From positions 1 to 63,884 of the forward strand of contig PXYT01000015.1 in the NCBI GenBank assembly GCA_003023725.1: DNA of 63,884 bases, in the 5' to 3' direction. Under the pieces are notes generated by a model. It was given only the letters and a program-made list of their open reading frames with translations. It had not been told where the DNA came from and did no database searches. Origin of the DNA: Sulfobacillus benefaciens (GTDB taxonomy: Bacteria > Bacillota > Sulfobacillia > Sulfobacillales > Sulfobacillaceae). Shown here piece after piece: positions 7,976 through 37,957 of this stretch (positions within the stretch are counted from its first letter, which is position 1; each line of letters opens with the position of its first letter). Both the position numbers and the translations under genes were made by a program.

Positions 7976-8197
7976 CAATATTTTGAATAATAGTCCGGAC
8001 AAAATGATTAGGTGGAATTTTCCCATTTAGGATAGGACGACTAATGGGCGCTTTTTGAAATCTCTTTGGTCGAGGGGAACAATAGCAAGACATTGTGCGA
8101 GCAAACGGTAAATTTGACTGCGGGCGTGCCTGCCAGGCTGTGTCTCATTTCACAGAATCTCGGGCAACCTTATGTATACGGACAAAAAGGGTTTATG

Positions 8198-8235: not shown

Positions 8236-8327
8236 AGTAATATGGATCTATCGATGGAAAAGTGATGATGCAGGAGCCCCAGTCCACCGGGGGTCCTGAA
8301 CAAATGCTAGCAAAGGGATGACGGGCG

Positions 8328-9032: not shown

Positions 9033-9062
9033 TCGAGGCTTGTTATCGAGGAGGGGACGCAG

Positions 9063-11420: not shown

Positions 11421-12566
11421 TTAGTTGTGGGTAATCTCGTGTATTGTTACGGGTGTCGTGAGTTGTTTTGATGAACTCCGTATCACAATCTCGGCTGGAA
11501 GGACGACTTTTCCGGGGACTATCGAGTCCGGTTCTTGAATTATAGATAACAATTGGTCGGCAGCTAATCGTCCCATTTTTTCCTTGGGATGGCGGATGGT
11601 GGTTAGCTCAGGATGACTGACAAGTGCCAGGTGGGAGTCGTCAAATCCCACCACGGACACATCGGCGGGGACGAACAACCCTGCTGCATTGAGGTCCTTT
11701 ATAAGGCGCACCGCAATTTCATCGTTATAGCACACGACAGCGGTGGGGCGGTTCGACTGCTTTTCGAAAACCGAGCGAACGTAGTCGTCAGTTACAATAT
11801 CTTTGGATTCAGTATGGTATAAAAAGAGCGCATCCGAGTTAAAGTCGACATGGTACTGAGCGAGGGCTCGAACGTACCCTTTAAATCTTTGCAGCCCTTG
11901 TTTGTCATCAACCTTGAATATGCCCCCAATGTTACGGTGCCCCTGGTCAAGAAGGTGGGTCGTGAGCATCTCGGCTCCGCGTAAGTCGTCGAACAGAATT
12001 TTGTGGAAGGGAGGGAATCCGGGCGGCTCCGCATGCAATAAAATTAATGGCAGCCTTCGTTGATAGATCTGTTGAAACAAGTGCAAATTTGGATTGGGAA
12101 TTGTACTTTTGACGGGTTCCAGAATGATGCCGCAACAATCCTGGGCGATGGCTGTCTCCAGAGCACGGCGCTCTAGCTCAAATTGGTTCTGCGTACTCAA
12201 GAGCAGGAGGTTATAGGAATGTTCACGCAAGGATTGTTCGATCCCGCGGATAATAGAGGGAAAAATATAGTCCGAAATGTACGTCATAATGACGGCAATA
12301 AGGTTGTTGGAATGGGCATGCTCTAGGACGGATCCATCCGCAACGAACGTTCCTCTACCCGGGATCCGAACCAGCATTCGCTCGTGAACAAGTTGTTCAA
12401 GAGCTTGCCGTACGGTGTGACGACTGACCCTGTATTGTTGCATGAGCATTGTTTCTGTGGGTAATTTTTCCCCTGAGGAGACTCCGTTGCGGATTTTTTG
12501 CCTTAATTCATTGGCAATTTCAATGTACTTAGGAGTTTGCTGTCGTGACATGGATATTGCCCCCAT
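11421..12566 (-). CDS. araR: AraR-type repressor (GntR DNA-binding head, LacI-type sensor)
   Basis: A 381-aa regulator. Residues about 10-75 form a GntR winged helix (KYIEIANELRQKIRNG, GEKLPTETMLMQQYRVSRHTVRQALEQL, RIPGRGTFVADG). Residues about 90-370 are a LacI/periplasmic-binding-like effector domain (NLIAVIMTYISDYIFPSIIRG, GIILEPV, GHRNIGGIF, VVGFDDSHLAL). This chimera is the defining architecture of AraR, which represses arabinose genes until L-arabinose binds. Candidate boxes lie upstream of araE, araD and its own gene. The start may be ATG 12566 or, with a better GGGGG-type ribosome site, ATG 12551. It faces araA across the debris stretch. Confidence 0.88.
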   Translation of the reverse strand: MGAISMSRQQTPKYIEIANELRQKIRNGVSSGEKLPTETMLMQQYRVSRHTVRQALEQLVHERMLVRIPGRGTFVADGSVLEHAHSNNLIAVIMTYISDYIFPSIIRGIEQSLREHSYNLLLLSTQNQFELERRALETAIAQDCCGIILEPVKSTIPNPNLHLFQQIYQRRLPLILLHAEPPGFPPFHKILFDDLRGAEMLTTHLLDQGHRNIGGIFKVDDKQGLQRFKGYVRALAQYHVDFNSDALFLYHTESKDIVTDDYVRSVFEKQSNRPTAVVCYNDEIAVRLIKDLNAAGLFVPADVSVVGFDDSHLALVSHPELTTIRHPKEKMGRLAADQLLSIIQEPDSIVPGKVVLPAEIVIRSSSKQLTTPVTIHEITHN

Positions 12567-12600
12567 TTCTTCATATATCAGTATACTCTAATCCAATCCT

Positions 12601-12626
12601 ATATATGCGTACGATTCGTATTGTAC
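12601..12626 (-). promoter_or_regulatory. Possible AraR box upstream of araR
   Basis: The region just upstream of araR contains a GCGTACGATTCGTA core. Its GTACG centre and flanking A/T resemble the two stronger AraR-like boxes in the araE-araD region. The fit is weaker, so autoregulation is only suggested. Confidence 0.35.
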
Positions 12627-13918
12627 CAAGAATCGCTCTCCGATGATGAAGCCAAAGATCGTTTCACTGAGTAGGTGTGGCACACTCTTCTCGAATCAAC
12701 TCAAACTTTGTGACGGATCGAATCCCGAAACTAAACATCCGGACATAGAAAATGGGCGGTTGTTTTAATTCAAAAAACATGAGGCAACATCGTTGACAAC
12801 TCAGTTTTTGCAAATACTGGTAAGCGCAAATGGCCAATAATTGTGTGGCCATTCGGGATTATATGGCTCCGTGCTAGGATGTCAGAAAATAGGACCGCGT
12901 TAATTACCAAACAATGCCATATCCATGAGATCGATCCGCGGTTTATGGGAGCGTTTGTGAGGTCTTAGGGGATCATGTCAGTGTCCTGGAACGTATATGG
13001 GAAGGGTTGATCACTGCCAATCAACACCGTGATTTGATCCGCTCCCTGCATGCCTGTCCATGCTAATATCGGGGCTTGAGTAGAGAAGGGGCGGGGTCAC
13101 AGGGAATGGGGGCGGGAATATCGTGAAAATCCTCGGAACCCCTGCTTCTGGCTTTTAGCATCCGGAGGACTCCAAATCGGAGAAGGGGTGTCTTCATGAT
13201 AAACGGCAATGGCACAGAGCTGGAGAGTTCGCCAACCAAGTGATCGACGGCGAAAACCCAAAACCCGTAAAAGCGCTGGCTGTCTGGATTGGTATAGTCT
13301 TGTCAACGTCTTCACCTCACAGTTTTTGATAGGAGTTTGACGTTTTATGAGCTGTCGCTGTCTCATGCCTACTTCACTTTGGTCGAACGCCGCAGGTTGG
13401 ACTCAATGTGGATTTCCTCAAGAATTCCGAGATTCGCCGCACGGCTTCCTCCCCCATCCGATCTCAGACGGTGGGCAATTCCAAGTCCCTGCTTTGGGAC
13501 ACCGAAGTTTGGAATGTTGACTGGGAGGACGAATAGAGGATGAGCATGATGGTTACGCATTCCATTTTTCTCAGGGATTTTGTTCCGCGTCGGAATGCTC
13601 GGTCAACGGCTCACTGTTCTCACGCTCTGCTTCGGCCGTCCCGTGCGTCTTCCACACTGCATGAACGGCTAGAGCCCGATCAAATAGAGGAACCTTGTCT
13701 GCTTTTGTGCGTGAGAATAATTAATGGAGTAATTTCTATGTCAGAATACAAACATAATATGTAAGGAATTTGTTACGATATCTATTGAAAACGACATAAG
13801 TTCTTGAACATCGTGAGCAACGAACCCAAATATTTTCGATATATGTCACATTTGGTTGTGGCGTTGGTTAAGTTTGTGTAGGGAGACACGGCTGACATGA
13901 AAGAAAGGAGATCCGACA
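12627..13918. other. 1.3-kb stretch of gene and possible IS debris
   Basis: No intact gene. A frame at 12664-12852 (minus) has a C-x(10)-C-x-x-C spacing but no other support. Around 12950-13065 (plus) a helical, charged reading frame (segment VSVLERIWEGLITANQHR) is broken at both ends. At about 13346-13400 (plus) the frame reads YFTLVERRRLDS, which resembles the N-terminus of IS30-type transposases but loses homology after one line. I take this as accumulated pseudogene fragments. The last 100 bp should contain the promoter of the NCS1 operon; no clear hexamers were seen. Confidence 0.35.
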
Positions 13919-23293: not shown

Positions 23294-24442
23294 TTAATCC
23301 ATCGTTAAATGTTGGAGGCGATAAAGCATCAGGCCGAGATACAGTTTGAAGGTGGTCGCCATATCTTCGAGATTGATGCCGAAATGCTCCTCTAATCGAT
23401 TGATTCGGTAGATTACGGTGTTTTTATGGGTATTGAGGACTCGGGCAGCCAAATGAGCGCTTTTCGCGTTATCGAAATACGCGCTGAGGGTGGGAAGCCA
23501 CTCGCTATTATGAACTTGATCGTAGTGCGCAATGGGGAGGATCGTTCGCTCAATGATACTATTGGCACGTTCCATATCCAGACCTGCGTGCAATATGGCG
23601 AGGGGTGCGATGTCTTGATACATGACGAAATGCGCCTGGGGCATGAGCGCGTTACCGAGATATCGTGTCATCTCGGCCTTTCTCGCACTGACGCTATATT
23701 CGAACAGTGTCGCTTCCTCGGTGCCTAGGTACATGTGGCTACCGTACCAGTGGACACCGCGATCTTTCAAGTCGTCGACTGTGGTGCCTTCCCGTAATGA
23801 TATGAAGCCTATGGAAAGCGTTGCATGTTCCATGGCCTTGTGAAAAATGTAGTTCCATCCGAAGACTTGAGCCAATTGAGCGGCAACCTCGGGAGCATTG
23901 ACGGATTCGCCCTTGAGTTCGAAGGCCACAATGCGACTGTTGAGGCTGATGCGAAATTCCTGTGCCCAAAAGCGAATTTGCGCGCTGGAAAGATGGCCGT
24001 TGCGCAAGCGCAGAAGGAACTCCGGGAGGGAGAGGGATCCGCCGAGATAGACCCCCTGGCCCCCGGATTTTTGTGCATACTGCATCGAATCCACAATGTC
24101 GGCAATTTTAACGGTGGGAGAGATTTCAATTAAGGGGAAATTCAATTCTTTGCCGAGACTCATCACTTCTTGTGGGAATTCGTCCCAATAGCGGTGAATC
24201 TTAAGGCCAAATCCCGAACAGTTGGCAGCGGACAGTCGGGATACGAGTCGGCAGAATGCAGAAACATCGCCATGCAGCGCATAACCGGTTGTTACAAGAA
24301 ATTCTCCCGGTTTAACCCACTCAGCAATGTCAGGCGCGTCCATGATTCCGATCTGGGTGACTTCTCGTTGCAAGCCGCCAAGCCCTGATGCGACTTTAAC
24401 CAGCGATGAAGGAATGAGTTGTAACATTTCCTGAACGGTCAT
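23294..24442 (-). CDS. PucR-family purine catabolism regulator
   Basis: A 382-aa regulator. The N-terminal PucR domain (about 1-115) contains the family pattern GIMDAPDIAEWVKPGEFLVTTGYAL, and the C-terminal HTH_30 domain (about 315-380) reads LAARVLNTHKNTVIYRINRLEEHFGINL. The middle part resembles the degenerate GGDEF-like domain of the CdaR/PucR group. PucR in Bacillus senses purine breakdown products and controls the puc genes. It is convergent with the xanthine dehydrogenase operon and probably controls it. ATG 24442 with GGAGG 6 nt upstream. A direct repeat upstream (24492 and 24523) may be its autoregulatory site. Confidence 0.87.
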   Translation of the reverse strand: MTVQEMLQLIPSSLVKVASGLGGLQREVTQIGIMDAPDIAEWVKPGEFLVTTGYALHGDVSAFCRLVSRLSAANCSGFGLKIHRYWDEFPQEVMSLGKELNFPLIEISPTVKIADIVDSMQYAQKSGGQGVYLGGSLSLPEFLLRLRNGHLSSAQIRFWAQEFRISLNSRIVAFELKGESVNAPEVAAQLAQVFGWNYIFHKAMEHATLSIGFISLREGTTVDDLKDRGVHWYGSHMYLGTEEATLFEYSVSARKAEMTRYLGNALMPQAHFVMYQDIAPLAILHAGLDMERANSIIERTILPIAHYDQVHNSEWLPTLSAYFDNAKSAHLAARVLNTHKNTVIYRINRLEEHFGINLEDMATTFKLYLGLMLYRLQHLTMD

Positions 24443-24491
24443 AGATTGCCTCCGAGGGATTTAGGATAACTGGTCTCTATCTAATTCTGCA

Positions 24492-24535
24492 TTTGTGTAA
24501 GCATACAATGATTTTAGGTCAGTTTGTGTTAGCAT
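24492..24535. promoter_or_regulatory. Direct repeats TTTGTGTwAGCAT upstream of pucR
   Basis: TTTGTGTAAGCAT (24492-24504) and TTTGTGTTAGCAT (24523-24535) start 31 bp apart, three helical turns, about 50-90 bp upstream of the pucR start. A weaker TTAGTGTAAG lies near 24577. Same-face direct repeats are what a multimeric regulator would bind. TTTGTGTAG also occurs at about 13873 before the NCS1 gene, but that match is short. Confidence 0.5.
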
Positions 24536-25229
24536 TATACCGTAAGTAAGGAACAAATCGTACATATATTGATAATTAGTGTAAGAAACAACGTCTTTTG
24601 GAGGAACATTTATGAGATGTGTTATGGTTTGGCTTGTTCTTACTTAACGAGGATGTCCAAAGTTGGTGGAGTTGTCCACTCGTCACTGGCTTTGTCAGCA
24701 AACGTCAAGAAAGGAGGCGTAGCTCCACCGAGGCCAATCACGAGACCAACCATGACGATTTATTCGTGCTAAAACCGCACGATATGTGTCCTTCCCCAAA
24801 TCCGTTTCAAATTTTCAACCACAGAAGTCCTTCATTCTCGATTCTCGCAATATCGCTCGGAATAAGGAAAACACTTGAATTCATCCCAGTTTCAGAAAAG
24901 GGCCGGAGTTTGTGATGATCTGTGGTGGTGTGTCTGCCGTTTGGCTGGAGTCTTGATAAAAGGACCCGGAAACGTCTGCAGAAATTGGATGCTGTTTGTC
25001 TCATGCTGGAACATTGCCACGGCGACGCCTTGTGGCTTTTGCCGAGGGCAGTGCAGGGGAGGGGCTCTCGGAGGTATGGTGAGGAGTGGTTCCCTTGGAT
25101 GGACCGGGCGTGACGAATGATTCTTCGCCGTGAGGGCATCTTGCCAATATTTTAGGTTTGTTGCCGAATGGCTTATTCGCCGGCTGTCCCGCGAACACTT
25201 GATTCGGTATTTTCCGTTTTCTTCGTCTT

Positions 25230-25720
25230 GGACCATGGGCATCGAATGGCTAGGATTGCACGCAGTATTTTACGGCCTATCACATGGGTTCGGATCTATT
25301 TAATCAAGATGGCGGCATTCCGCTTACGTTCTCGGGCTCGTCGGTGCTCATTATTTTGGGTTGGGGATCCTAGCTGTTACCTGGCACCGCCGTGGAGGCC
25401 ATCTCCCATTATGTTACAAGCTGTTTGGGGTAGAAGCTGGCGCCAATGATGATCTTAAGGTCAATGGAACCGCCAGCGCGGCGTGTCGTGACGTGGTGGG
25501 CTATTGTCTTCTTGTGCTGGCGATGGGCCGGGATCTATTGGAGTATCGCGTTCATTCCTACTGACTGAGATGATGGGAATTTAGTGTGGCACTATGAACT
25601 GTGCCGAGAACATGGGAGGCATCTTGGACACCCATTGCGGCGGGATTAATTCTCTCCATCATTCCGGAATTTGTGGGAGCTTTGAAGTTATCTGCCGGCG
25701 CCAAATTGATGTAAATGCAG
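25230..25720 (+). pseudogene. Possible decayed membrane permease
   Basis: At least three hydrophobic segments typical of transmembrane helices are encoded on the plus strand, but in two frames and with internal stops. The best pieces are LGLHAVFYGLSHGF near 25245, YVLGLVGAHYFGLGILAV near 25330 and IAAGLILSIIPEFVGAL near 25635. The location between purine genes suggests a former nucleobase transporter. The family is not identified, so the call rests only on composition. Confidence 0.3.
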
Positions 25721-25868
25721 AGTTTTCTCCTCATCAATTGCCCAAAAGATGGTTCGCAGCAGGCAACTATGGCCGGTCATGAGACTCGAATGTGAGAAAA
25801 GCGGCGTCGTAGTGTGCCGCCAAAGTATCGTGCCCTCAACAGAACGGGCCTAAAGGAGGGGGATAAAC

Positions 25869-25988
25869 GTGACGGATGAGGATGGCATATGGCCCCGGTC
25901 GCCGAACCCGGCGCAGGAGCGGACGAGTCGTGAAGTGATGGCCAAAGTGAATGTGGATGGGGATTTTCGTGATGCCGCGGCGCCGTGA
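25869..25988 (+). CDS. Small open frame with strong ribosome site (39 aa)
   Basis: A GTG start preceded by AAAGGAGGG at ideal spacing opens a 39-codon frame (starting [14 protein letters not shown], ending in Ala-Ala-Ala-Pro). It ends 89 nt before the deacetylase-like gene. Composition is hydrophilic, with no hydrophobic helix and no family I know. It could be a genuine leader or small protein, or the surviving 5' end of a truncated gene; the excellent ribosome site is the main evidence. Confidence 0.35.
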
Positions 25989-26077
25989 TTAGCCCAGTGT
26001 CAGAGGATCTGGCGCAATTCACCTTTGCACGGTGGCCAATGGCCATTGAGTATTCTATGAGGAGGGGACAGACGGAT

Positions 26078-26965
26078 ATGGCAAAGAAAGAGATTATGGT
26101 CGCTTATGGAGTGGACGTTGATGCCGTGGCGGGGTGGTTGGGATCTTATGCTGGCGAAGATTCACCCGATGATATTTCCCGCGGACTGTTTGCAGGGGAA
26201 GTCGGAGTTCCTCGGCTGTTGAAGCTTTTTCGCCAACACGGGCTAAAAACAACCTGGTTTGTTCCCGGGCATTCGCTTGAAACGTTTCCGGACCAGATTC
26301 GCCAAGTTGCCGCAGACGGTCATGAAATTGGCGCACATGGATATTCGCACGAAAATCCGATTACCATGGCGCCGGAACAAGAAGAGGCCGTGTTGGTGCG
26401 GTCCATTGAGCTCATTGAGAATCTTTCCGGGAAACGGCCAACAGGTTATGTTGCACCATGGTGGGAATTTTCTCATGTCACCCATGAGCTTTTGATCAAA
26501 TACGGAATGCAGTATGATCATAGCTTGATGCATCATGATTGCTTGCCATACCGGATTCGGGTAGGCGATACGTGGACTAAAATCGACTACGCGAAATCCG
26601 CACAGGAATGGATGAAACCCTTGGTTCGCGGACACGAGACCGATTTGATTGAAATTCCCGCCAATTGGTACTTAGATGACTTGCCGCCTATGATGTTTAT
26701 CAAAAACTCGCCCAACAGTTATGGATTTACGAATCCCCGTGATATTGAACAAATGTGGAAGGATCAATTTGATTGGATTTATCGTGAATACGATTACGCG
26801 GTGTTTACGATGACGGTTCATCCCGATGTTAGTGGCCGGCCGCAAGTGCTGTTGATGCACGAGCGTCTTATCGAATACATTAACCGTCACGAAGGGGTTC
26901 AATGGCACACCTTTCATGAAATTGCCAACGACTTTAATCGTCGCGAATTGTTGACAAAGAGATGA
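26078..26965 (+). CDS. Polysaccharide-deacetylase-fold amidohydrolase, PuuE-like
   Basis: A 295-aa NodB-fold protein. The N-terminal metal/catalytic Asp pair is in [11 protein letters not shown], the HxxxH motif is in [14 protein letters not shown], and a late His lies in [11 protein letters not shown]. There is no signal peptide or membrane anchor, so it acts in the cytoplasm. In this superfamily cytoplasmic members such as PuuE allantoinase and bacterial cyclic imidases open ureide or imide rings. The purine context therefore favours ring opening over peptidoglycan deacetylation, but HP0310-type proteins look similar. ATG 26078 follows GGAGGGG by 10 nt; the longer frame upstream lacks a ribosome site. 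Confidence 0.78.
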
Positions 26966-27157
26966 CAACATCTTCGAACCGTCTTCGCAAGGATTGATCT
27001 CCCATATCATCGCGGTGATGCCGAATAAAGGGCAAGTCCTCACGCGTTGGCTACAGGAAGGTTGGTCGATGGATCTCAAATACAGGGGATTGGTGGTCTA
27101 GGACTAATGAAGTGTCCGATGCTGTTAACACATTGTCACCGGCCCATTCATCCAAAA

Positions 27158-27189
27158 GACCCGCAAGAGATGAGTTCTTGATGCGGGTC
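27158..27189 (+). other. Hairpin in the leader of the 8-oxoguanine deaminase-like gene
   Basis: GACCCG (27158-27163) pairs with CGGGTC (27184-27189), and CAAGA with TCTTG inside, giving a two-part stem about 38 nt before the start codon. No T run follows and it does not match a riboswitch I can recognise. It could be an attenuation or mRNA-stability element, or chance. Confidence 0.25.
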
Positions 27190-27226
27190 CGAGCGTGAGG
27201 GTCAACTACACCGAGGAGGGTAACGC

Positions 27227-28585
27227 ATGTTGACGCTGGCACATTTTGACTGGTTGTATCCGATGACCTCGGCCCCGCTTCAAGACGCGTATCTGATTAT
27301 GCAGGGGTCTGAAGGCGGCGGTACAGTCTTAGCCATGGGAACGGGCGAGCCCCCAAATTGTGGGGGCTCGCGCTGGGACATGCACGGCACATTAGCCCTC
27401 CCTGGACTTGTCAATAGCCATCATCACTTGTTTCAGACTCTCACCCGCGGATACGCTCCCAATCAGGGGCTTTTTGCCTGGCTTCAGTCCTTATTTCCTC
27501 TGTGGGGGCATCTCAACCCAGAAGCCATTTACCAATCAGCGCTCATCGGCCTGGCGGAATTGATGCTGTCAGGCTGCACAACAACGTCGGATCATTTATA
27601 TATCGTCCCCGAAGGACAAGACTCGATGAGATTTTTCGAGGCCACCATTGAGGCTGCGAAGCGGCTTGGCATACGACTTTATGTCACCCGCGGAGCAATG
27701 ACCAGGGGCTGGGGCCATGGCGGCCGCGGCCCGTCAAATCTCATTGAAGACGAAGACACAGTCCTGCAAAATATGCAAGATCTGGTCAATCGGCATCATG
27801 ATCCTTCCCCGCTCGCCCAAATCAAAGTCGCTCTTTCACCCGTATCCCTGCCGGCGGTATCCGCCCGATTCATGAAAGAGACCGCTCGGCTGGCGGAAAC
27901 TCTTGATGTTCGTTTGCATACTCATGGCTGGGAAACCTTAGACGAGCGTCAATGGGTGCAAAATGTCTATGGCACAACAGAACTTGCGTTGTTTGACGAA
28001 TGGGGATGGCTTCAAGATCGGACGTGGTTTGCTCATGCCGTGCATGCCAATAAGGAAGTCATTGACCTATTGGGTCAACGCAACGTGGCTATAAGCCATT
28101 GTCCGACATCCAATATGCGATTGGGATCAGGGATTGCACCCATCCGTTCATTTTTGGATGCAGGGAATACGGTGGCCCTTGGAGTAGACGGATCCGCTTC
28201 CAACGACGGCAGCCATCTTTTGGCCGAAGCACGCCAAGCGCTCTTGCTTGCGCGGGTACTTGGAGGTGCAGCGGCCATGACAGTGGAAGAAGCCTTGCAT
28301 TTAGCGACAACCCAAGGTGCTCAGGCCTTAGGCTGGCCTGAGATTGGACAACTGGCGGTTGGTTTGCCGGCTGACGTAGCAGTATTCCGGATTGACGATC
28401 TCTTTCATAGTGGTGCCATGGCACCGTTGGAGGCGCTTCTTTTTTGCCAGCCCGTGCTAGCCGAGGTGGTGGTGATTGGAGGGGAAGTACGCGTCTGGCA
28501 AGGCAAGATTCCTGGAATTGACTGGTCCGCCGAGGTGGCTCGCCATCAATTATTGAGCCGTCAGCTGCTTGAAACGCAGAAATAA
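27227..28585 (+). CDS. 8-oxoguanine deaminase-like amidohydrolase (Atz/Trz family)
   Basis: A 452-aa member of the AtzA/TrzN deaminase branch. The metal motif is LPGLVNSHHHLFQTLTRG (about 55-73). A His lies in LDVRLHTHGWE, a His in WFAHAVHANKE, the SHCPTSNMRLGSG strand follows, and the catalytic Asp sits in ALGVDGSASNDGSHLL. The SASNDGSHLLAEARQALLL segment is strongly reminiscent of characterised 8-oxoguanine deaminases, which release ammonia to give urate. This would feed the same urate pool as xanthine dehydrogenase. ATG 27227 with GAGGAGGG about 6 nt upstream. Guanine or isoguanine deamination remains possible. Confidence 0.82.
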   Translation: MLTLAHFDWLYPMTSAPLQDAYLIMQGSEGGGTVLAMGTGEPPNCGGSRWDMHGTLALPGLVNSHHHLFQTLTRGYAPNQGLFAWLQSLFPLWGHLNPEAIYQSALIGLAELMLSGCTTTSDHLYIVPEGQDSMRFFEATIEAAKRLGIRLYVTRGAMTRGWGHGGRGPSNLIEDEDTVLQNMQDLVNRHHDPSPLAQIKVALSPVSLPAVSARFMKETARLAETLDVRLHTHGWETLDERQWVQNVYGTTELALFDEWGWLQDRTWFAHAVHANKEVIDLLGQRNVAISHCPTSNMRLGSGIAPIRSFLDAGNTVALGVDGSASNDGSHLLAEARQALLLARVLGGAAAMTVEEALHLATTQGAQALGWPEIGQLAVGLPADVAVFRIDDLFHSGAMAPLEALLFCQPVLAEVVVIGGEVRVWQGKIPGIDWSAEVARHQLLSRQLLETQK

Positions 28586-29166: not shown

Positions 29167-31653
29167 TCAGCGTGTCCGCTGGAATTCCTTCCATTTTTTC
29201 TTGGAAACCCGCCGGTGGATATGGCCATCATCAAACCGAAAGAGGTGAATCCAGTTATTGTCGACTAAGTCCCGTACTTGTCGGTGATTTGCAATCACCT
29301 CGTCGATGGCGCTAGACGGAGCTTCGATCACAACGTTTAACCGTAGTGGTTCATGCATCCATCCCTTGCCATTGTGCAGGGACTGCATGGCCAACCCCAC
29401 CCGAAGATCTCCGCCCATGCCTTCGAGCACACCGATTGCTCCGCCCACAACATTGTGCAGCACTTTGTTTCCGCTGCCAAAACGCTGATTATCCACAACC
29501 GACCCGTAGTACTGCATATTGATCCACTGAGCCACAATCAAAGGTGCTGTCATAATCAGTTCAAGGGTGGAAAAACCCTCGTCCTGATGCCAGTCATAGT
29601 CATGCAAAAAAACTCGGCCCGAGAAGTTACAATGTTTGGTGCGAGCACGCGGAGCGGCGATAAACGCGGCATTGCCAGCCAAGGCCCATTCCGGACGAAC
29701 TTGAGCCCAGTCGTGAATACGCCGCTTCATGGTGCTATGAACACTGCGGTTAGGCATGTCCGCAACACCCAAAGACGCGGCTTTCTCCATGCGGGCAATT
29801 TGGCTGGCAGACGCAGTCCACTGACGGAATTGCGCCACCTCCTCTTCATGGGAGGGAGGAAGCTCGTCATCAAACAGCTTCATCTCATCCGTTGTGGTGT
29901 CATGGAGTGCTGCCATGAAATAGGTGTCGTCGGGAATTATAATGCCTCGGTGCACCAGATTACGCCGGGTGGCGGGATCATTAAGCAAGGCCGCGGCCAG
30001 CCGTGCACTGGCCTCTCCGGACTGACCGCCGCACGCACCGCAATCCAAAGCCGTGGCCTGGGGATTGTTGACTGTGGTGCTGGCGTGGCCGACAAAGACA
30101 ATGAGGCGGGAAAAGTCGCGGGTCAGTCCCATGTTGCGTAAAACAAACTCAGCCGCCTTAGGGCGTTCTTCTTCCGGAATTCCGTTTGGTTCTGCGAACT
30201 TTGAGAGAGAAGATTGCTGCTTGGCCGAAAGAACGGGCGCTAATTGCTGACGGATCCCCGCCTGAAGGCCTGCTCTTTTTGGAGAGGGAACAGGGCGGGT
30301 CCATCCCATGCCGTCTAAAATAAGTTTCGGAGCCGATAACACGCCTGTTGCTTCGACGAATGCGAAACATGATGAAGCAGAGGTTTTAAAGATTTTCCAG
30401 GCTTTCATCGTGCGTAAGTGAATGTGTCTTCTTCGGATTACTTTGCCCATGGCTTGGCTGTCCGCGTTATCTATCCCTTCTTGGATGCGGTAGGAGGGAT
30501 TGAACAAAACGGGATGATGGCGGTTGCCCTGAAGAGACCCGAGAGGCAGATATTCCATCAGAATGCCGAAAAATCCGGCAAAACCCCGAGTTTCCACTGA
30601 AGGGGCAACCATTTCCAAGGCACGGCGGTAAACTTCTGATCGCACATCAATGCAAAAAACCGCCTGGACATCTGTGCGGGGACTCGGTGAGACGGAGTTC
30701 CCCGAGTCGGATATAGCCGCTATCAGTTGTTTCTGATAACCGATCTCGAACGCACTGTGCAATACGGCATCAACCTCAAGCCGGATGTTGGGCTGGTTCC
30801 AAGGTTTTAGGGCAAGTTCCCAAGATTTGAACCACTCCTCCTTAACCGGCTCAGAACCAAAAATGTGATAGAATGCCAGGTCCCAGGCAAGACGGATGGC
30901 CAATAAATCTTGGGTGACATCATGTTGGCCGCCCTGAAGTTCAGCCTGGTAGTCCAAGTAACGCGTCCATCCTGCCCAGCCGCCAACACTCAATAAAGCC
31001 GCATGGAGATAGTCGTCTATGGCCTCACTGGGCACTTGCAATTCTCGCAAGGCGAAGACAATGAGATCGGGGGCAGTGCCGGGAAATGTTAACATGACTT
31101 TGCCGAGATTTCGAAAACCCATGACCTCGGGCGTCTTATCAAAACGCATAAATTCTCTGAATCCCCGGTAAAGTGAGGTATCCTTCCACGGCAGCGGCCA
31201 TAAGGATTGGCCCTCATCGAAATAAGCGGCACAGTATCTGCTGATGCGCTCGGCCACGAAGCTTGACCAGTCTTGATTTTTGGATTTCTTATTCAGAATA
31301 TCCGTCATGAGATTGACACAGGCTCCCCCCAAAAAAGGAGGATCTTGGGAGAGAATGTGCTCAAATTGGTTCATGTTCCAGGAACTGCCCAATTCTTCGA
31401 GCGCATCCGCCAAATCCTCCCGTGTGATCCGCCCTTGCACAATTTGCTCGTAATAATAGGCTCTCGGCATTGAGAGCCCCGTTCCGGTGAGACGATTCAA
31501 GGTTTCATGAGCCTGCCAAAAGGGCCGATCACTGAACCCCATGTAGGGATTTACCGCCACAAAGTTTTTGAGAGGCCATAACGGGGCTATTCGCCGACAG
31601 GCTGATTGGGCCTTGTCCAGCATTTCGGATTCGGTAAGATGCATGACTTTCAT
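29167..31653 (-). CDS. dabA: DabA, zinc-binding subunit of the DAB inorganic-carbon accumulator (DUF2309)
   Basis: An 828-aa DUF2309/UPF0753 protein of full length. The beta-carbonic-anhydrase-like zinc and catalytic residues known from Halothiobacillus DabA are all present at matching spacing: C334 and D336 in VFCIDVRSE, H523 in FVGHASTTVNN and C538 in TALDCGACGG. DabA sits on the cytoplasmic face with DabB and is thought to hydrate CO2 one-way to bicarbonate, driven by the ion gradient. The N-terminus PLKNFVAVNPY is also typical. The ATG at 31653 overlaps the dabB stop (ATGA), with GGGAGG about 10 nt upstream, so the two are translationally coupled. Confidence 0.93.
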   Translation of the reverse strand: MKVMHLTESEMLDKAQSACRRIAPLWPLKNFVAVNPYMGFSDRPFWQAHETLNRLTGTGLSMPRAYYYEQIVQGRITREDLADALEELGSSWNMNQFEHILSQDPPFLGGACVNLMTDILNKKSKNQDWSSFVAERISRYCAAYFDEGQSLWPLPWKDTSLYRGFREFMRFDKTPEVMGFRNLGKVMLTFPGTAPDLIVFALRELQVPSEAIDDYLHAALLSVGGWAGWTRYLDYQAELQGGQHDVTQDLLAIRLAWDLAFYHIFGSEPVKEEWFKSWELALKPWNQPNIRLEVDAVLHSAFEIGYQKQLIAAISDSGNSVSPSPRTDVQAVFCIDVRSEVYRRALEMVAPSVETRGFAGFFGILMEYLPLGSLQGNRHHPVLFNPSYRIQEGIDNADSQAMGKVIRRRHIHLRTMKAWKIFKTSASSCFAFVEATGVLSAPKLILDGMGWTRPVPSPKRAGLQAGIRQQLAPVLSAKQQSSLSKFAEPNGIPEEERPKAAEFVLRNMGLTRDFSRLIVFVGHASTTVNNPQATALDCGACGGQSGEASARLAAALLNDPATRRNLVHRGIIIPDDTYFMAALHDTTTDEMKLFDDELPPSHEEEVAQFRQWTASASQIARMEKAASLGVADMPNRSVHSTMKRRIHDWAQVRPEWALAGNAAFIAAPRARTKHCNFSGRVFLHDYDWHQDEGFSTLELIMTAPLIVAQWINMQYYGSVVDNQRFGSGNKVLHNVVGGAIGVLEGMGGDLRVGLAMQSLHNGKGWMHEPLRLNVVIEAPSSAIDEVIANHRQVRDLVDNNWIHLFRFDDGHIHRRVSKKKWKEFQRTR

Positions 31654-33320
31654 AATGATGTGACCTCCCGTAATGAGGGTTCAGATTCATGGTTTTGGGG
31701 CGCTGAGACATCCTTGTAAGGGGGGGAGAATTTTTGAATCCAGCGGCTGAAGATCATATCGACATAGAGATCATTGTACAGATGGACGAAGATGGCGTGC
31801 CATACAGGCTGCTTAAGGAGTCTGGGTAACATCTGTTGAATCAGCAACAGAGCTACAAATACCATCACAATCAACCCGAGCAGCGCATCTTGCACCACTC
31901 CTGTGGGCGAAAGAGGTTCCGGCAATACCGGGGCAAAGAGTGCCATAAACCAGGAGCCCAGAAGGAAATAAAGGGTGGCCACCAATGCACTAATGCCTAT
32001 GGAGATCCATAAGAACGGCAGCGTGCTGGATTTGACCTGGCTTATGGCGGAGGAAATCAAATGAGAGAGCGCCACCGCCAGAATTATGCCCATGACTGTG
32101 ATAGGGAGATCCCCAAGGAGCGGAACTTTAAGCAGCCATCCCGTCACCATCACAGTGATTGCCCCCAAAACCAAGCTAAGGGTGATTTTGCCAAGTGGTG
32201 CAGAAGAAGGCCCGGCGGGCATCACCGGCCAGCGGAAATATTCGACGATACTACCGGACGACAGAAAGGCGTGAGCCTTGTAAACAGAGTGTGAAACAAT
32301 GTGCAGTAATGCCAGAGCGTAGAGACCAAGACCCAATTCCATCAGCATAAATCCCATCTGCGCGGACGTTGAATAGGCGAGCGATCCCTTGATGTTGGTT
32401 GAGGTCATCATCATAAGCGAAGCCGTGGCGATGGAAATGAGTCCAATGACTATGAGCAGATCTCCCGTCCAAGGGACTCGCGACATGAGGGGAACCATCC
32501 GCATGAGCAGAAACGTGCCGGTATAAATGATGCCGGCGTGCAGCAACGCCGAGACCGGCGTTGGCGCCTCCATAACTTGGATGAGCCACCCATGAAGGGG
32601 CACTTGGGCGCTTTTAAGGACCGCACTGAGAAGAACAAGAGCTGCGGCGAATTGCAGGGTATTGGGGAGTCCCCCCTTAATGCTGGCGATGGACACCATG
32701 ATGTGATTAAAGTCCGCGGTATGCAGGGTATGTACAACCAGCAGCAGCGCTATGAACAGACTGAGATCGGCAATGCGGTGAAGAATATATTTTTTACGGG
32801 CAGCTAAGAGGGCGAGAGGACGCTCAGGGTAAAAAGCCAGCAAGTGATGCAGGAACAGACTGGTTGCCACCCAAAAAACAAAGAACTCCCACACATTGCC
32901 GGCGGTAATGACTGTTAAAAACGAGCCCAATGTTATAGAGAGCCAGTAATGAAAACTTCCTTCATGCGGATCGCCCTCCATATACGTTAAGGCGTATCGT
33001 GAGACGATGAGTCCAACCAAAGCCACTAACAACATCATTACCACGCTCAGGCTGTTGACATCCTCGTTAAGGGCAAATTGGGCCAAGTGCCATGGTAACG
33101 GCAGCTCAAAGAATGTTTTGGAGTCCTGTTGCCCAGTGAGAGATATGGCCGTAATCACAATACCGTCCCCCAGGGCGAACCAGGCTGAGCCTATGGTCAA
33201 TTTTTTGATTAACCGCGAATGGCGGTTGGCCCAATTTGCTCCGAGAAGAATTGGGAGAAGCAGGGGCCATGGTAGAATAAGCATCAGGATTGCACTCAGC
33301 GTGCTGAGCTGCACAGGCAT
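31650..33320 (-). CDS. dabB: DabB, proton-channel subunit of the DAB system (NuoL/MrpA-like)
   Basis: A 556-aa polytopic membrane protein of the NADH-quinone oxidoreductase subunit L/antiporter family. Typical core segments are YMEGDPHEGSFHYWL, VPLHGWLIQVMEAPTPVSALLHAGIIYTGTFLL (the Lys/Glu/His proton-path helices) and the ASTNIKGSLAYSTSAQMGFMLMELGLG helix, with interrupted hydrophobic helices throughout. It couples H+ or Na+ flow to DabA. ATG 33320 is chosen since AAAGGCGG lies about 8 nt upstream; the 32 extra upstream codons are unlikely to be translated. It precedes dabA and shares its promoter at 33472-33500. Confidence 0.9.
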   Translation of the reverse strand: MPVQLSTLSAILMLILPWPLLLPILLGANWANRHSRLIKKLTIGSAWFALGDGIVITAISLTGQQDSKTFFELPLPWHLAQFALNEDVNSLSVVMMLLVALVGLIVSRYALTYMEGDPHEGSFHYWLSITLGSFLTVITAGNVWEFFVFWVATSLFLHHLLAFYPERPLALLAARKKYILHRIADLSLFIALLLVVHTLHTADFNHIMVSIASIKGGLPNTLQFAAALVLLSAVLKSAQVPLHGWLIQVMEAPTPVSALLHAGIIYTGTFLLMRMVPLMSRVPWTGDLLIVIGLISIATASLMMMTSTNIKGSLAYSTSAQMGFMLMELGLGLYALALLHIVSHSVYKAHAFLSSGSIVEYFRWPVMPAGPSSAPLGKITLSLVLGAITVMVTGWLLKVPLLGDLPITVMGIILAVALSHLISSAISQVKSSTLPFLWISIGISALVATLYFLLGSWFMALFAPVLPEPLSPTGVVQDALLGLIVMVFVALLLIQQMLPRLLKQPVWHAIFVHLYNDLYVDMIFSRWIQKFSPPYKDVSAPQNHESEPSLREVTSL

Positions 33321-33471
33321 AGCATTGCCGCCTTTCTTCGTCAAGTTTTGTGGTTCCAAGTCTTCGCCAAATGCCCACGGGATTGCCGTGTGGGTCGGCA
33401 TGAAAGCAACAAACACAGGGGGATGCCCTCAAATACATGTCACAGCATTCATGAAATATATGTCGTATGTG

Positions 33472-33500
33472 ATTATACACTGCCTACCAAGAGGATGCAA
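33472..33500 (-). promoter_or_regulatory. Sigma-A-type promoter for dabBA
   Basis: Reading on the minus strand, TTGCAT (33500-33495) and TATAAT (33477-33472) are separated by exactly 17 bp. The -10 lies about 150 nt before the dabB start codon, leaving a leader with AT-rich text. This is the best core promoter I see in the window. No LysR/CbbR gene is adjacent. Confidence 0.65.
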
Positions 33501-34119
33501 CGAACCGGGAAACTTTTTTATGGCGCTGATCCGGCAATCCCTCCCTCACCCGGGGCCATTGCGTGAGGGAACTGATAGCGGAGAACCTTATATTTTCTTG
33601 TGACTTAAGTGCAGACGTGGTCTGTTGGTTGCTTGAGCATGAAATTCCTGCCATATAGTGCACAGAGAACGATGACAATGGGGGCGCGGGCTTTTGTGAT
33701 TAATCCCTCTCCAATGTTCTTACGCCCGGCCAGCAATGGCAGACGCATGATGGCCAGAGATATTGCGGGGAGGGTGAGGATGACTGAACGTACCGCAGCG
33801 TAGAGTGGATGATTTGGAGGAATCCGGCCATATGACTCTTCCGGGACGCCCGCCAAAATCGTTACGCAATTCATGCTAAGCGTCTCATACACCATCCTCA
33901 ACAACAAAGGCGGCCATCAGATCTTCTGGAACTGTTCGCATATACCGGCTGAAGAGAGATCGAAAAACCCACCAAGGGCATGATAGACCGTTACTAACGA
34001 GAAAGAGAAAAACCGGTGAATTAAGGAAAGAGCCGACATGCGAGATGCCTGCTCTGTTTCCGTGTTTTGCAATTCAATGACTGAACTCCGATTCTTTTTC
34101 CTCTTATTATCGTGTCGGG
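33501..34119. other. 0.6-kb stretch between dabBA promoter and histidine phosphatase gene
   Basis: No supported gene. A minus-strand frame at 33605-33907 (100 codons) includes hydrophobic text (YAAVRSVILTLPAISLAIM and APIVIVLCALYG) that could be a small membrane protein or a permease remnant, but it has no good ribosome site. No recognised repeat. Confidence 0.3.
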
Positions 34120-34737
34120 CTATAACGGGACGCCCAGTGGGCTTGTCAGCCAGTTCAGAGCTCTCCATTTGATCTCAGCCATGTTAGTCATATTCAACAC
34201 ATAAACATCACCGGTATTAATTTCAAGCTTGCGGTAATGTCTGAAGGGCATGCCCAGAGTGCCTGCCATAACCAAACGCATAGCGGTGGTGTGGGAAACA
34301 ATCAAAACATTTTGGCAGTGCTGATACTCACTGAGAACCTCTGTCATGCGTTCGAAAACTTCCTTTGCGGTTTCTCCGCTCCTTCCGGCTGGGGTTTTGA
34401 GAGGATCATGCGTCCATTCAGCCCATTGCCGGGGAAAGCGGGCTTCAATTTCCGGTGGAGTCAATCCTTCCCAGTCACCAAAGTCTATCTCTTGCAATCT
34501 GGGATCGACCTGCATGTCAATCCCCAACCTTTTTACGATGGGTATAGCCGTGTTTCGGGCCCGTGTTAAGGGAGACACCACTGCAGCATCGAAAGGGATT
34601 TTATGGAGTAAGGCTGCTAAGAGTGTAGCCTGCAAGGTTCCCATTTCAGTCAATGGAATATCGCTACGTCCGCAGTATCGGTTTCCATCACGACTCCACT
34701 CGGTTTCTCCGTGGCGGACCATGTAAAATATCGTCAC
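34120..34737 (-). CDS. Histidine phosphatase (phosphoglycerate-mutase-like)
   Basis: A 205-aa branch-1 histidine phosphatase. The catalytic motif is MVRHGETEWSRDG near the N-terminus, with partner residues in SPLTRARNTA, the acid EIDFGDWEG and the second His in VLIVSHTTAMRLV. These enzymes dephosphorylate small phosphate esters such as 3-phosphoglycerate, alpha-ribazole-P or sugar phosphates; the substrate cannot be read. The GTG at 34737 is preferred because GGGAGG lies 7 nt upstream; an in-frame ATG five codons earlier contains the ribosome site itself. It follows the carbonic-anhydrase-like gene by 233 nt on the same strand. Confidence 0.85.
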   Translation of the reverse strand: MTIFYMVRHGETEWSRDGNRYCGRSDIPLTEMGTLQATLLAALLHKIPFDAAVVSPLTRARNTAIPIVKRLGIDMQVDPRLQEIDFGDWEGLTPPEIEARFPRQWAEWTHDPLKTPAGRSGETAKEVFERMTEVLSEYQHCQNVLIVSHTTAMRLVMAGTLGMPFRHYRKLEINTGDVYVLNMTNMAEIKWRALNWLTSPLGVPL

Positions 34738-34970
34738 GACCAAACCTCCCATGATTTATCTGTGAGACATGATTAGGAAATGAATGAAAATGCCGGGCGA
34801 AATATGCGTCCCCGAAAAATTGTTGAATTGTGGCCTCTGGCCTGCAGATCCAAAAAAGAGGGGGGAGCACGCGCGTGGGTGGAACAAGATCGCAAGCGCA
34901 ATAAGGAGGCTTGCCCTATCTGGAATTTAAACCACCATATCCCGCGCTTCATTGGTTTTGTGCTCATATC

Positions 34971-35537
34971 TCACTCTCCAACAGGGTGGAATAGGATGCC
35001 TGGTTCTTTGATGAGAAACCCACGGACAGTGATATCTCGAGGGAGCAAGGGATGTTCACGTATGACCCGGAGGGTGTCCCGGATATAAACGGACGCCTTA
35101 GAGTCGTCGGAACGCAGCCACTCTTCAGGATCGATTCCATAGTATTGTTGTAATAGAAAGCGGATCGTATTCCCGGTGTCCTGGGAGAGTTTAGCACTGA
35201 GGTCGATGAGTTCAGCATCTTGAGCCGGTGCATCTTGCCGGTCCCGGGATTCAGCCACTACGTAAATAGTTCTTATCTGAGGATAACGCTTTAGGCTGAT
35301 CAACATGGTGCGCATGAAAGAACCATAGGGATCCCACAACAGTCCGTTTTCGCAGCGAAGCCACAGCGCTTGATGCAAGCATCCCAGTTGTTCTTCAACG
35401 ATCATTTCATAGTCTGGCCGCAATCCGCCGACTATGAGGGAACGGGGAACAGCACCCAAACGGGAATTTGATCCGAAACGACTCGCGTTGTGAGTGGATA
35501 TATTGGTCGTTGCACCGTCGGCGGCTTTCATCATCAT
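34971..35537 (-). CDS. Beta-carbonic-anhydrase-like protein lacking the zinc ligands
   Basis: A 188-aa protein whose layout follows beta-carbonic anhydrase: a first strand LIVGGLRPDYE (about 34-44), a central WLRCENGLLWDPYGSFMRTMLISLKRY helix region split by the PYGS turn (about 59-85), the strand TIYVVAESRD (about 90-99) and an HPLLPRDITVRGFLIKEPG C-terminus (about 162-180). However, the Cys-x-Asp of strand 1 is replaced (GGLRPD), and the His-x-x-Cys after the second strand is replaced (ESRD). Only two Cys remain (53 and 62), at non-ligand positions. It is therefore probably a catalytically dead homologue, perhaps a sensor or partner for DabA. ATG 35537 with AAGAAAGGA upstream. Confidence 0.62.
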   Translation of the reverse strand: MMMKAADGATTNISTHNASRFGSNSRLGAVPRSLIVGGLRPDYEMIVEEQLGCLHQALWLRCENGLLWDPYGSFMRTMLISLKRYPQIRTIYVVAESRDRQDAPAQDAELIDLSAKLSQDTGNTIRFLLQQYYGIDPEEWLRSDDSKASVYIRDTLRVIREHPLLPRDITVRGFLIKEPGILFHPVGE

Positions 35538-35648
35538 GCTTTTGGTCCTTTCTTGTGGCAATGTTTTTTATCGCGGCCTATTAGGAGCTTTTGCTGGTAG
35601 GCCTTATAGTGCTTTCTGGGCATGTTCTCTCGGTTACTTTTCTGCCGT

Positions 35649-36521
35649 TTATGGATTGCACCGTGGGCAATGGGCGGCAGAAGCGAAATGCAGCCCGTCG
35701 TGTCTTGGTTGATTTTCCTTATACCCGCAACCGGGGCATCCGTAAACTTCTAAGTGTGTGAGCAAAGTTTCCCCACCGCACCACTCACACGGCAGTCCTC
35801 TAATGAGATCGACCAGCCCCCATCCCGGGGTAGAGCACCGAGGACAAAGGGTAGCCAGGCGCTGGCCCAATTTCGTGGCAACTTTTGCTAAAACATGGCG
35901 ACGCATCGGATTCATGTGCGCCCGCATATCTGTTTGGACATAAGCCAAGCCGTCTTCGGAAGACGATGCACAGGCTGTCACGGCCTGATGCAGGGTTTCG
36001 GTATCGGTAATGCCCTTGAATAAGAAGCCGGGCTGGAAACCTGAATTCGGCCTGACAATCAGTCCATGGGATGGGAATTTCACACGGACTAGAAATTCCT
36101 GTAACTCGCTTGGATGATGGACGGATTGGTTAGCATAGTTGGTTTCGAGGTCGATAATTTGTTCAATTACTTCAATTCCCCGCTCATCATCAACAAAGGC
36201 CAATAATTCGTGGCAAGTTGGGGCAAACAATAGCTGAGGGTCTGGGCCAAAACTGCCTTCGCTGGCCAGCCCCAAGGGAAGGCCTGTAACGGCCATGCCC
36301 CACCGGGCTTTTTTGAGAGCTGTTTCCCTGGGAGTGCCAATACGTTCTACCTCACCCGTAAAAGTTCCCAACACATCGGTATCCAGATTTTTTGGAACAC
36401 ACAACATGAGACCGACGGCCGATTGGAGAGGCGGGCCCAGGACTTGTTCTTTTTGATGCTTCGTGGCCAAAACCACCTTACGGCCCTGGTATGGGTGAAT
36501 GCTCGCCTGATCCTGAGTCAT
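35649..36521 (-). CDS. DUF6671-family protein with C-terminal zinc ribbons
   Basis: A 290-aa protein. The N-terminal two thirds match the DUF6671 pattern: YQGRKVVLATKHQKEQVLGP, LDTDVLGTFTGEVERIGTP, KARWGMAVTG and ASEGSFGPDPQ. The last about 65 residues carry four CxxC/CxC-type pairs (CPRCSTPG, CEWCGG, CPGCGY and CPRCNP), enough for two zinc ribbons. The role of the family is unknown. ATG 36521 has GAGG 5 nt upstream. First gene of a minus-strand set with the carbonic-anhydrase-like protein (111 nt later) and the histidine phosphatase, upstream of dabBA. Confidence 0.8.
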   Translation of the reverse strand: MTQDQASIHPYQGRKVVLATKHQKEQVLGPPLQSAVGLMLCVPKNLDTDVLGTFTGEVERIGTPRETALKKARWGMAVTGLPLGLASEGSFGPDPQLLFAPTCHELLAFVDDERGIEVIEQIIDLETNYANQSVHHPSELQEFLVRVKFPSHGLIVRPNSGFQPGFLFKGITDTETLHQAVTACASSSEDGLAYVQTDMRAHMNPMRRHVLAKVATKLGQRLATLCPRCSTPGWGLVDLIRGLPCEWCGGETLLTHLEVYGCPGCGYKENQPRHDGLHFASAAHCPRCNP

Positions 36522-36540
36522 GTCATCCTCGCCTCTTTTG

Positions 36541-36564
36541 GCACGAACATTGCTGCGTTCGTGC
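36541..36564 (-). other. Leader hairpin before the DUF6671 gene
   Basis: GCACGAAC and GTTCGTGC form an 8-bp perfect stem around an 8-nt loop, about 20 nt before the DUF6671 start codon and downstream of its likely promoter. No T run follows on the minus strand, so control of mRNA stability or of ribosome access is more likely than termination. Confidence 0.4.
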
Positions 36565-36600
36565 GGTAGTGTGACAAAGCGGTTCTTATGTCACGACATA

Positions 36601-36629
36601 ATTGTCGCGAAAACATAATCATATGTCAA
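36601..36629 (-). promoter_or_regulatory. Likely promoter of the DUF6671 gene set
   Basis: On the minus strand TTGACA (36629-36624) and GACAAT (36606-36601) are 17 bp apart, about 80 nt before the start codon. The -10 region also contains a small CGACA/TGTCG inverted repeat that could be an operator. Confidence 0.5.
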
Positions 36630-36840: not shown

Positions 36841-37176
36841 TCAATTGTCACCGGGGCATTCGGTGTGTTTCTTTAGCCGCTCCAATTGTATGCAGTAGTT
36901 CTGCTGCGTGAAAAATAAACCGGGATCAAGAACCGTCAGTAAATCCGTATACGGGATTTGATGCCACCGACTCAAACGCTTGAAAATAGTCCCACTCACC
37001 TGCACAGCCAATGGAAGAAGGCTGAGGATTGCGATGAGATACAACGATATCGTTTCCCCACTCAGTATCCTGGATACCAGCGGACGGGCTGCAGATGCTC
37101 GCGGACGGGAGCAAGCCAAGACAGGGACACAAAAATTCACCTCTTCTCGAAACACGAGCCCTTCTTTAAATGCCAT
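36841..37176 (-). CDS. Possible small membrane-protein gene, perhaps broken
   Basis: A 111-codon frame with one convincing hydrophobic helix (ISLYLIAILSLLPLAVQVSG) followed by a charged region (IFKRLSRWHQIPYTDLLTVL). A GTG in another frame near 37130 has a better ribosome site (AAGAGGTG) and reads MSLSWLAPVREHLQPV before a stop, which hints at a frameshift joining the two. The family is not recognised. A second frame of 86 codons (36591-36851) overlaps its stop and may be an unrelated shadow. Confidence 0.25.
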   Translation of the reverse strand: MAFKEGLVFREEVNFCVPVLACSRPRASAARPLVSRILSGETISLYLIAILSLLPLAVQVSGTIFKRLSRWHQIPYTDLLTVLDPGLFFTQQNYCIQLERLKKHTECPGDN

Positions 37177-37957
37177 TCATTAAGTAATGGACACGACAAG
37201 TCCTTTAGTTGGCATTTCTCACGCTGACTCTTTCTTGCTGAAACCTCTTTATAGATAAGATTTGATAGGATCTCTCAGTGAGTAGGGTCTTTTGGTGGCC
37301 TACTGTCTTTTGTGAAGTTCATATTGAGAGCGTAGCAAAGAATTCAAGGAATTGACTAATACCAAAGTGCGAAAGTATCGATAAGGCCAAGATAATGGAT
37401 CGAGCCAAATCCTGGTAGTTTTCTGATGTGTCACTAGACCCTGTCATTGGTCATGTAGGCTGGATAGCGGGGGATTTACCTTTTCTGCCTTTTCCTTCAA
37501 CAATGCAGGTGGACTTTTCGGCACTAAGGACTGAAAGTTTGCTCCGGGACCACCAAGAAATCGCTCGCAGCTCTGAAGAATGTGCCAATGCTGACTCCGG
37601 GGAAATCCTTCTGGACCTAAGATGGCGGCTTGTTTGGTTTGCAGATCTAGCCGAATGGAGAATTTGAGAACGATCACGAGGCCCAAGCCACTGGCTACAG
37701 CCTGCTGAATTGCGCTGTAGTATCCAAGTCCATTTTTAGCCAAATTTTTAATCCTCTATCGGCAAAGATTTTTTCCTGGGCGATATGTTCCCGAACTCTC
37801 TTCTCGTATCAGGACGATTTCATGGGTCAGGGAGAGGAAGTCCTGGCTTTCGCCAATGCGTGGCCAGGCCAGGCGATAAGCATCAGCTCATTCGTGAGAA
37901 AAAAGGGGGGACACCGGGATTTTATTCGGCTGGGTACGGTCCCAATTCGGATGAGGC

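Follow-up and report, generated by a model that had tools for sequence, protein, structure and literature searches.

The DAB pumps (DabAB, DAB2 or MpsAB) are the closest described relatives of the locus reported here. According to excerpts of the 2026 DAB2 structure paper (PMC13144422), DabA2 needs the zinc ligands Cys351, His524 and Cys539 together with an Asp353-Arg355 dyad, and how DAB pumps avoid futile cycling is named there as an open question. Those excerpts, and excerpts of a 2024 review of the inorganic-carbon (Ci) toolkit (PMC10880623), hold no passages on neighbour genes of unassigned function, and no description of a unit of DUF6671, a degenerate carbonic anhydrase and a histidine phosphatase beside DAB operons. 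A search of 5.4 million papers returned none naming DUF6671, and an earlier sequence-only reading of this DNA knew of no described function for the combination. DAB itself is an established pump; what appears to be new is the companion family DUF6671 with its breadth. To our knowledge, little is known about how bacteria sense and balance CO2 and bicarbonate beyond the PII signalling of cyanobacteria.

The window locus and its promoters

The window, by which we mean the whole stretch of 63,884 nucleotides analysed, carries on its minus strand, from 36521 down to 29167, the genes for DUF6671, psCA, a histidine phosphatase, DabB and DabA. Here psCA is our label for a degenerate beta-carbonic anhydrase of 188 aa without zinc ligands. 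Profile matches and coordinates confirm the five genes and the single strand given by the sequence-only reading. The dabA gene (29167-31653) matches PF10070 at 3e-266 (886 bits, cut-off 25) and overlaps by 4 bp with dabB (31650-33320; Proton_antipo_M, PF00361, 2.7e-37), the adjacent partner gene expected for DabA. The dabB reading frame is open from 33416, and its start is probably the ATG at 33320, as homologues of 552-563 aa suggest. DabA aligns throughout its length with H. neapolitanus DabA2 (PDB 9rd0, 3.7e-203), and its motifs CIDVRS, GH and DCGAC fall on the DabA2 site, so that all five active-site residues are kept (Cys334, Asp336, Arg338, His523 and Cys538 in the numbering of the window's DabA). 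The carbonic-anhydrase-like site that had been ascribed to DabA is present, with zinc ligands and Asp-Arg dyad, and DabAB of the window is a complete and probably active CO2-hydration pump.

Upstream lie the genes for DUF6671 (35649-36521, 290 aa; PF20376, 1.2e-51, 176 bits, cut-off 23.8), psCA (34971-35537, with its ATG at 35537) and a CobC/PspA-like histidine phosphatase (34120-34752; His_Phos_1, PF00300, 7e-55). The phosphatase scores below all NCBIfam equivalog cut-offs (for the alpha-ribazole phosphatase CobC, 144 bits against 162.9), and its best PDB matches are alpha-ribazole phosphatase, CobC and phosphoserine phosphatase. Among the loci examined it occurs almost only in genus-level relatives, with L083 as the exception. 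Two remnants that the sequence-only reading did not mention lie further upstream on the same strand: a shortened relative of a gene for a small membrane protein (cluster c9, 36841-37176) and what is left, at the C-terminal end, of a LysR gene resembling cbbR (37444-37743). Both genes are decayed in the window and intact in the sister locus L067, among the closest relatives, where the order runs from LysR and the small membrane protein through DUF6671, psCA and the phosphatase to, after a gap, dabB and dabA. Locus L069, which also has an intact LysR gene, shows this arrangement without psCA. The LysR proteins of the sister loci are 58-63% identical to the LysR adjoining RuBisCO in these genomes; their best family is NCBIfam NF045990, at 233 bits, below the CbbR equivalog cut-off of 450.

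The genome of the window (G000) encodes RuBisCO (contig C88) and a second dabBA (contig C46; locus L084, about 1250-13334), and so belongs to a Sulfobacillus-like bacterium carrying the genes of a CO2 fixer. Next to the second dabBA are a gene for the RuBisCO large subunit, broken by an internal stop, and what is left of DUF6671, 70 aa long; to judge from these gene remains, it is a decayed RuBisCO-DUF6671-DAB cluster. On the other side of the window's dabA, positions 23294-28585 encode a PucR-type regulator, a PuuE-like protein of the polysaccharide-deacetylase family and an 8-oxoguanine-deaminase-like amidohydrolase, a content that suggests a purine-breakdown cluster.

Two promoters had been proposed for the five genes. 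A consensus scan by itself finds promoters at chance level (10 found, 8.1 expected), and the proposal stands instead on conservation in relatives and on a common TATGTCGT box. The promoter of the DUF6671 unit (TTGACA-17-GACAAT, 36601-36629, minus strand) is conserved in relatives, and its -10 region is overlapped by a palindrome, TTATGTCGTGACATAA (36586-36601), that contains the box. The dabB promoter (TTGCAT-17-TATAAT, 33472-33500, minus strand, with TATAAT at 33477-33472) is conserved in L067, L069 and L084, and its box lies at 33459-33466, on the plus strand (ACGACATA on the gene strand). In both promoters the box lies a short way past the -10 element. In 649 kb of related loci, TATGTCGT precedes DUF6671, dabB, phosphatase or carbonic-anhydrase-family genes nine times where 0.72 are expected (p 8e-8, for a set of sites picked after the box had been seen). 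Co-regulation of the DUF6671 unit and the dabBA unit, as suggested earlier, is supported by this common box.

We propose that the five genes of the window form a locus for Ci uptake, made up of two units, in an autotrophic Sulfobacillus-like bacterium. One unit would be the DabAB CO2-hydration pump and the other, with its own promoter, the DUF6671-psCA-histidine phosphatase set; since the same TATGTCGT box stands in both promoters, both units are probably switched on together under scarce CO2. In this proposal CO2-responsive expression and any physical complex are inferred.

The carbonic anhydrase relative psCA

The 188-aa protein had been called a carbonic-anhydrase-like pseudoenzyme, and it proves to be related to beta-carbonic anhydrases with the zinc ligands lost. 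It matches no Pfam or NCBIfam family. Compared with a real beta-carbonic anhydrase of the same genome it gives an hhalign E of 3.7e-11, and the profile of its own family matches the beta-carbonic anhydrase 6y04 in the PDB at E 1.6e-5. The best fold matches of the psCA model are also beta-carbonic anhydrases, with Z 15.8 to 6y04. This model was built from an alignment that included true beta-carbonic anhydrases, and therefore the sequence tests carry the claim. The CxDxR and HxxC zinc ligands and the Asp-Arg dyad are all gone (CMDTR has become GGLRP, and GHYDC has become AESRD). By these comparisons psCA is a genuine degenerate beta-carbonic anhydrase. Elsewhere the genome carries an intact gene for a beta-carbonic anhydrase (contig C116; L085, 2658-3242), preceded at a distance of about 300 bp by a TATGTCGT box.

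The psCA family is rare. We find it in Sulfobacillales, where it adjoins DUF6671 in all loci in which it is found, and a similar protein occurs in Bacillales of the Chryseomicrobium type, where a ligand-less protein lies between SbtA and DUF6671 (L138, L273). For a single origin of all pseudo-carbonic anhydrases beside DUF6671 we obtain p-AU 0.27, with the Chryseomicrobium protein on a long branch. In Sulfobacillales, psCA is probably a dead-enzyme partner of DUF6671. It could instead be a changed enzyme, similar to COS or CS2 hydrolases or with a new metal site at Cys53 and Cys62, and no partner at all. Both hydrolases are among the fold matches of the model, and Cys53, Cys62, Trp59 and Trp68 are invariant in six sequences; however, COS and CS2 hydrolases retain the zinc Cys-His-Cys triad, whereas psCA has lost every ligand, and we regard a changed enzyme as improbable.

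Neighbourhoods of DUF6671

A scan of genome contigs finds 451 DUF6671 relatives in many phyla. Among the best 80 of these, dabA lies within the fetched flank in 36, again across many phyla, and in 23 loci, some of them from other samples, dabA is on the same strand, directly upstream of DUF6671 or one gene away. In Aliihoeflea, Mesorhizobium and Pelagibacterium relatives the ends of dabA and DUF6671 overlap by 4 bp. The link of DUF6671 with dabAB is thus not accidental; the set is not specific to DabA, and the 188-aa family is rare. Across 42 genomes of the order Sulfobacillales, 23 have DUF6671 and 25 have DabA; in ten loci the two lie on one contig, no more than about 15 kb from each other, and elsewhere they are apart. 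The sequence-only reading took occurrences of DUF6671 in genomes without dabA to speak against the link, and we find such genomes (15 of 40 in one sample, and several Sulfobacillales). By its own rule a strict link to DabA fails, and a wider link to Ci replaces it. In the dabA-less genomes DUF6671 adjoins SbtA, PurK, PyrC or isocitrate dehydrogenase (IDH), or has no informative neighbour.

Several unrelated uptake systems are found next to DUF6671. These include SbtA (PF05982, 5e-108), with or without an SbtB-like PII protein, and as SbtA-SbtB itself in L134 and L181; CmpABCD, in which CmpA scores 590 bits to CmpA against 470 to NrtA; BicA, with 507 bits to PDB 6ki1; and, once and opposite to DUF6671, CupA (PF10216) and NdhF3 of the CO2-uptake NDH-1 complex (NDH-1MS). 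At this last locus, L248, NrtA is of the nitrate type, and therefore Ci is represented by the CupA-NdhF3 side alone.

To put numbers on the link, we scored a Ci gene (a Ci-uptake or carbonic-anhydrase-like gene) when it lay within 1.5 kb of DUF6671, and compared with 197 control genes taken from the same or related genomes (20 stretches of 20 kb each, placed at random). A Ci gene is present at 46 of 117 DUF6671 loci and at none of the 197 controls (Fisher 2e-23, a value overstated because the markers were picked after inspection of the data and the loci are related); without counting psCA, 39 loci remain. CO2- or HCO3--dependent enzymes are near DUF6671 at 24 of the 117 loci, and 66 have either a Ci gene or such an enzyme, again with 0/197 in the controls. 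None of the scored neighbours is present at 37 loci, including most of those from Bacilli. In evenly drawn samples, Ci genes occur at 5 of 12 DUF6671 loci in Alphaproteobacteria (289 genomes, 12 with DUF6671) and at 7 of 19 loci in cyanobacteria (242 genomes, 125 with DUF6671), L248 being scored through NdhF3; the Bacilli sample, at 1 of 7, is out of line. A tree of DUF6671 requires at least 46 changes of neighbour label, and at least 11 for the DAB label taken alone; the links have therefore arisen or been re-formed on many occasions, and there is no single frozen cluster. The association of DUF6671 with Ci supply in general is well supported, and we hold it with high confidence. That it is an artefact of post-hoc markers, mobile islands and related loci, some of them near-copies (L153/L154 and L162/L163/L169), is most improbable, given the absence of scored neighbours around the control genes, the many label changes and the agreement of evenly drawn samples from two unrelated classes.

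The enzymes near DUF6671 are of several kinds. PurK and PccB use HCO3-, and PyrC, FolC, IlvD and urease alpha, which have unrelated folds, share a carbamylated active-site lysine; in the copies beside DUF6671, PyrC, FolC and IlvD retain their carbamyl-lysine motifs. In Alphaproteobacteria, an island of the form IlvD-PyrC-DUF6671-FolC brings together three unrelated carbamyl-lysine enzymes (L171, L178, L197, L149, L176, L180); L176 and L180 have IlvD, PyrC and PccB. The IlvD proteins are 88-97% identical across genera, and the island has probably moved horizontally. Several island genomes have a further dihydroorotase-like match elsewhere. After the island, L171 continues with genes for a LysR protein and a HAD hydrolase, then dabB-dabA-cysD and another copy of DUF6671. 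In L144, L161, L164, L171, L174, L175, L182, L183 and L196, a gene resembling cysD, for the small subunit of sulfate adenylyltransferase, either separates dabA from DUF6671 or comes immediately behind DUF6671; in all, CysD is near DUF6671 at 11 of the 117 loci. IDH with the bacterial C-terminal domain adjoins DUF6671 at 17 of the 117, in Sulfobacillales and others (for example L075, L077, L111, L130 and L142). Both IDH and CysD fit a CO2 explanation poorly. In four Bacilli loci (L271, L272, L274, L275) a diverged subgroup of DUF6671 is found beside an ABC-transporter ATPase of 409 aa, with none of the known Ci genes next to it, and in four cyanobacterial loci (L247, L249, L253, L254) DUF6671 overlaps the end of the gene for a 256-aa ABC ATPase with a branched-chain-type C-terminus.

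Candidate roles of DUF6671 and likeness to known systems

The DUF6671 model (pLDDT 93.1) predicts that residues 13-232 resemble HAM1/RdgB (Z 11.4 over 137 residues, 2.9 A) and YjjX (Z 9.4). Within this region, residues from about 127 to 200 are predicted to form an ATP-grasp-like lobe (Z 7-10, best 10.2) that matches cyanophycin synthetase, D-Ala ligase, carbamoyl-phosphate synthetase and pyruvate carboxylase; the lobe may be either an insertion or DUF6671's own version of the second HAM1 lobe. By hhalign the match to HAM1 is weak (probability 5.8%, E 0.0065, 57 columns) with the motifs in register, and the DUF6671 profile searched against PDB proteins gives only zinc-finger-like chance matches. 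Residues H22, K24, T48, D49, R60, K71, E88, E105, D111, H152, K169, D198, R200, R207 and R221 do not vary among 37 diverse DUF6671 proteins, and this set looks like an active or ligand site. Eight nearly invariant cysteines, in C-terminal Cys4 motifs, are likely to form two Cys4 zinc sites.

We propose that DUF6671 is a widespread factor for CO2/HCO3- limitation that would work with whichever of DAB, SbtA, BicA, BCT1 or NDH-1MS is present, and also with CO2- or HCO3--dependent enzymes. It would be a soluble protein, binding and perhaps hydrolysing NTPs, through which Ci supply or the activity of CO2-dependent enzymes is linked to the energy state, and psCA, a beta-carbonic anhydrase past catalysis, would be its Ci-binding or scaffold partner. 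Nucleotide binding by DUF6671 seems rather probable; for a regulatory or sensing role we see the chances as even; a role in carbamylation or CO2 delivery would be surprising. For the explanation as a whole, a nucleotide-dependent CO2-limitation factor with psCA as non-catalytic Ci-binding partner, we lean slightly in favour. Given its place beside representatives of each major bicarbonate or CO2 uptake system known in bacteria, and beside enzymes that need CO2, DUF6671 probably belongs, so far unrecognised, to the means by which bacteria deal with scarce CO2. Its presence by DAB, SbtA, BicA, BCT1 and once NDH-1MS, in organisms with and without RuBisCO, would make it a common component of CO2 acquisition. 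It is a concrete and testable target, also for the engineering of CO2-concentrating mechanisms, and a candidate for the protection of enzymes that need a CO2-carbamylated lysine.

A more general reading, which we consider doubtful, makes DUF6671 an NTP-dependent factor of CO2 homeostasis, either a CO2/HCO3--sensing gate on unrelated Ci systems or an installer or protector of carbamyl-lysines; psCA, where present, would then be a dead-enzyme receptor, and PyrC, FolC, IlvD and urease would be the targets under scarce CO2. Narrower, and unlikely, is a direct aid to CO2-dependent enzymes, for example as an NTP-dependent chaperone for carbamyl-lysines or by delivery of CO2 or carboxyphosphate, with pumps expressed alongside, since they increase the same pool of CO2. 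Urease maturation and RuBisCO activation are models for such chaperoning, and the active-site lysine of IlvD, FolC and urease is carbamylated. Published work documents carbamyl-lysine for dihydroorotase and for Mur-ligase relatives of FolC, and our search found no report of it for IlvD. The shared carbamyl-lysine with its retained motifs, the use of HCO3- by PurK and PccB, and the predicted ATP-grasp-like lobe all agree with direct aid to these enzymes, but such neighbours are a minority (24/117) and partly come from the one horizontally moved alphaproteobacterial island, and IDH and CysD have no carbamyl-lysine. Two other candidates, considered separately, are rejected: CO2-independent isozymes with a replaced carbamyl-lysine are ruled out by the kept lysines, and a zinc-starvation island of PyrC and carbonic anhydrase paralogues leaves SbtA, BicA, Cmp, PurK and IlvD unexplained.

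The predicted HAM1/RdgB/YjjX-like fold and the nucleotide-biosynthesis neighbours PurEK and PyrC are what one would expect of an ITPase-like house-cleaning NTP pyrophosphatase linked to Ci through shared regulation only. A protein with such a role would not be expected beside DAB, SbtA, BicA, Cmp and Cup; moreover, the genome of the window has an ordinary HAM1 as well, as do 39 of 40 further genomes from the phylum, and in DUF6671 Asn7 of HAM1 has become His22, Asp67 has become Glu88, and the Cys4 motifs and the predicted ATP-grasp-like lobe come in addition. We judge house-cleaning to be unlikely.

Returning to the proposed CO2-limitation factor, we compare its parts with known systems. The window shares with DabAB, DAB2 and MpsAB (PF10070 with PF00361) the overlapping dabB-dabA pair and the full DabA2 active site, and differs in its second, apparently co-regulated unit. 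psCA resembles beta-carbonic anhydrases in predicted fold and in the C-terminal HPLxP...G motif, and departs from them in having an extra insertion and new conserved Cys and Trp residues in addition to the missing ligands. DUF6671 is like the ITPase superfamily (HAM1/RdgB, YjjX, Maf) in its predicted core fold, in the positions of LAT-x-H-x-K and E-x-A-x-x-KAR, and in an acid (Glu88) at the catalytic position; it is unlike that superfamily in the Asn-to-His change, the added ATP-grasp-like lobe and the Cys4 motifs, and sequence-profile similarity is weak. KomB, the HAM1-like subunit of the KomBC complex (PDB 8zsg), is a case of a HAM1-like fold reused within a protein complex, but has no known link to inorganic carbon. 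Finally, DUF6671 may work as SbtB does, a small soluble PII-like nucleotide-binding partner beside the bicarbonate transporter SbtA; the fold of SbtB is unrelated, and DUF6671, unlike SbtB, occurs with many transporters, even beside SbtA-SbtB.
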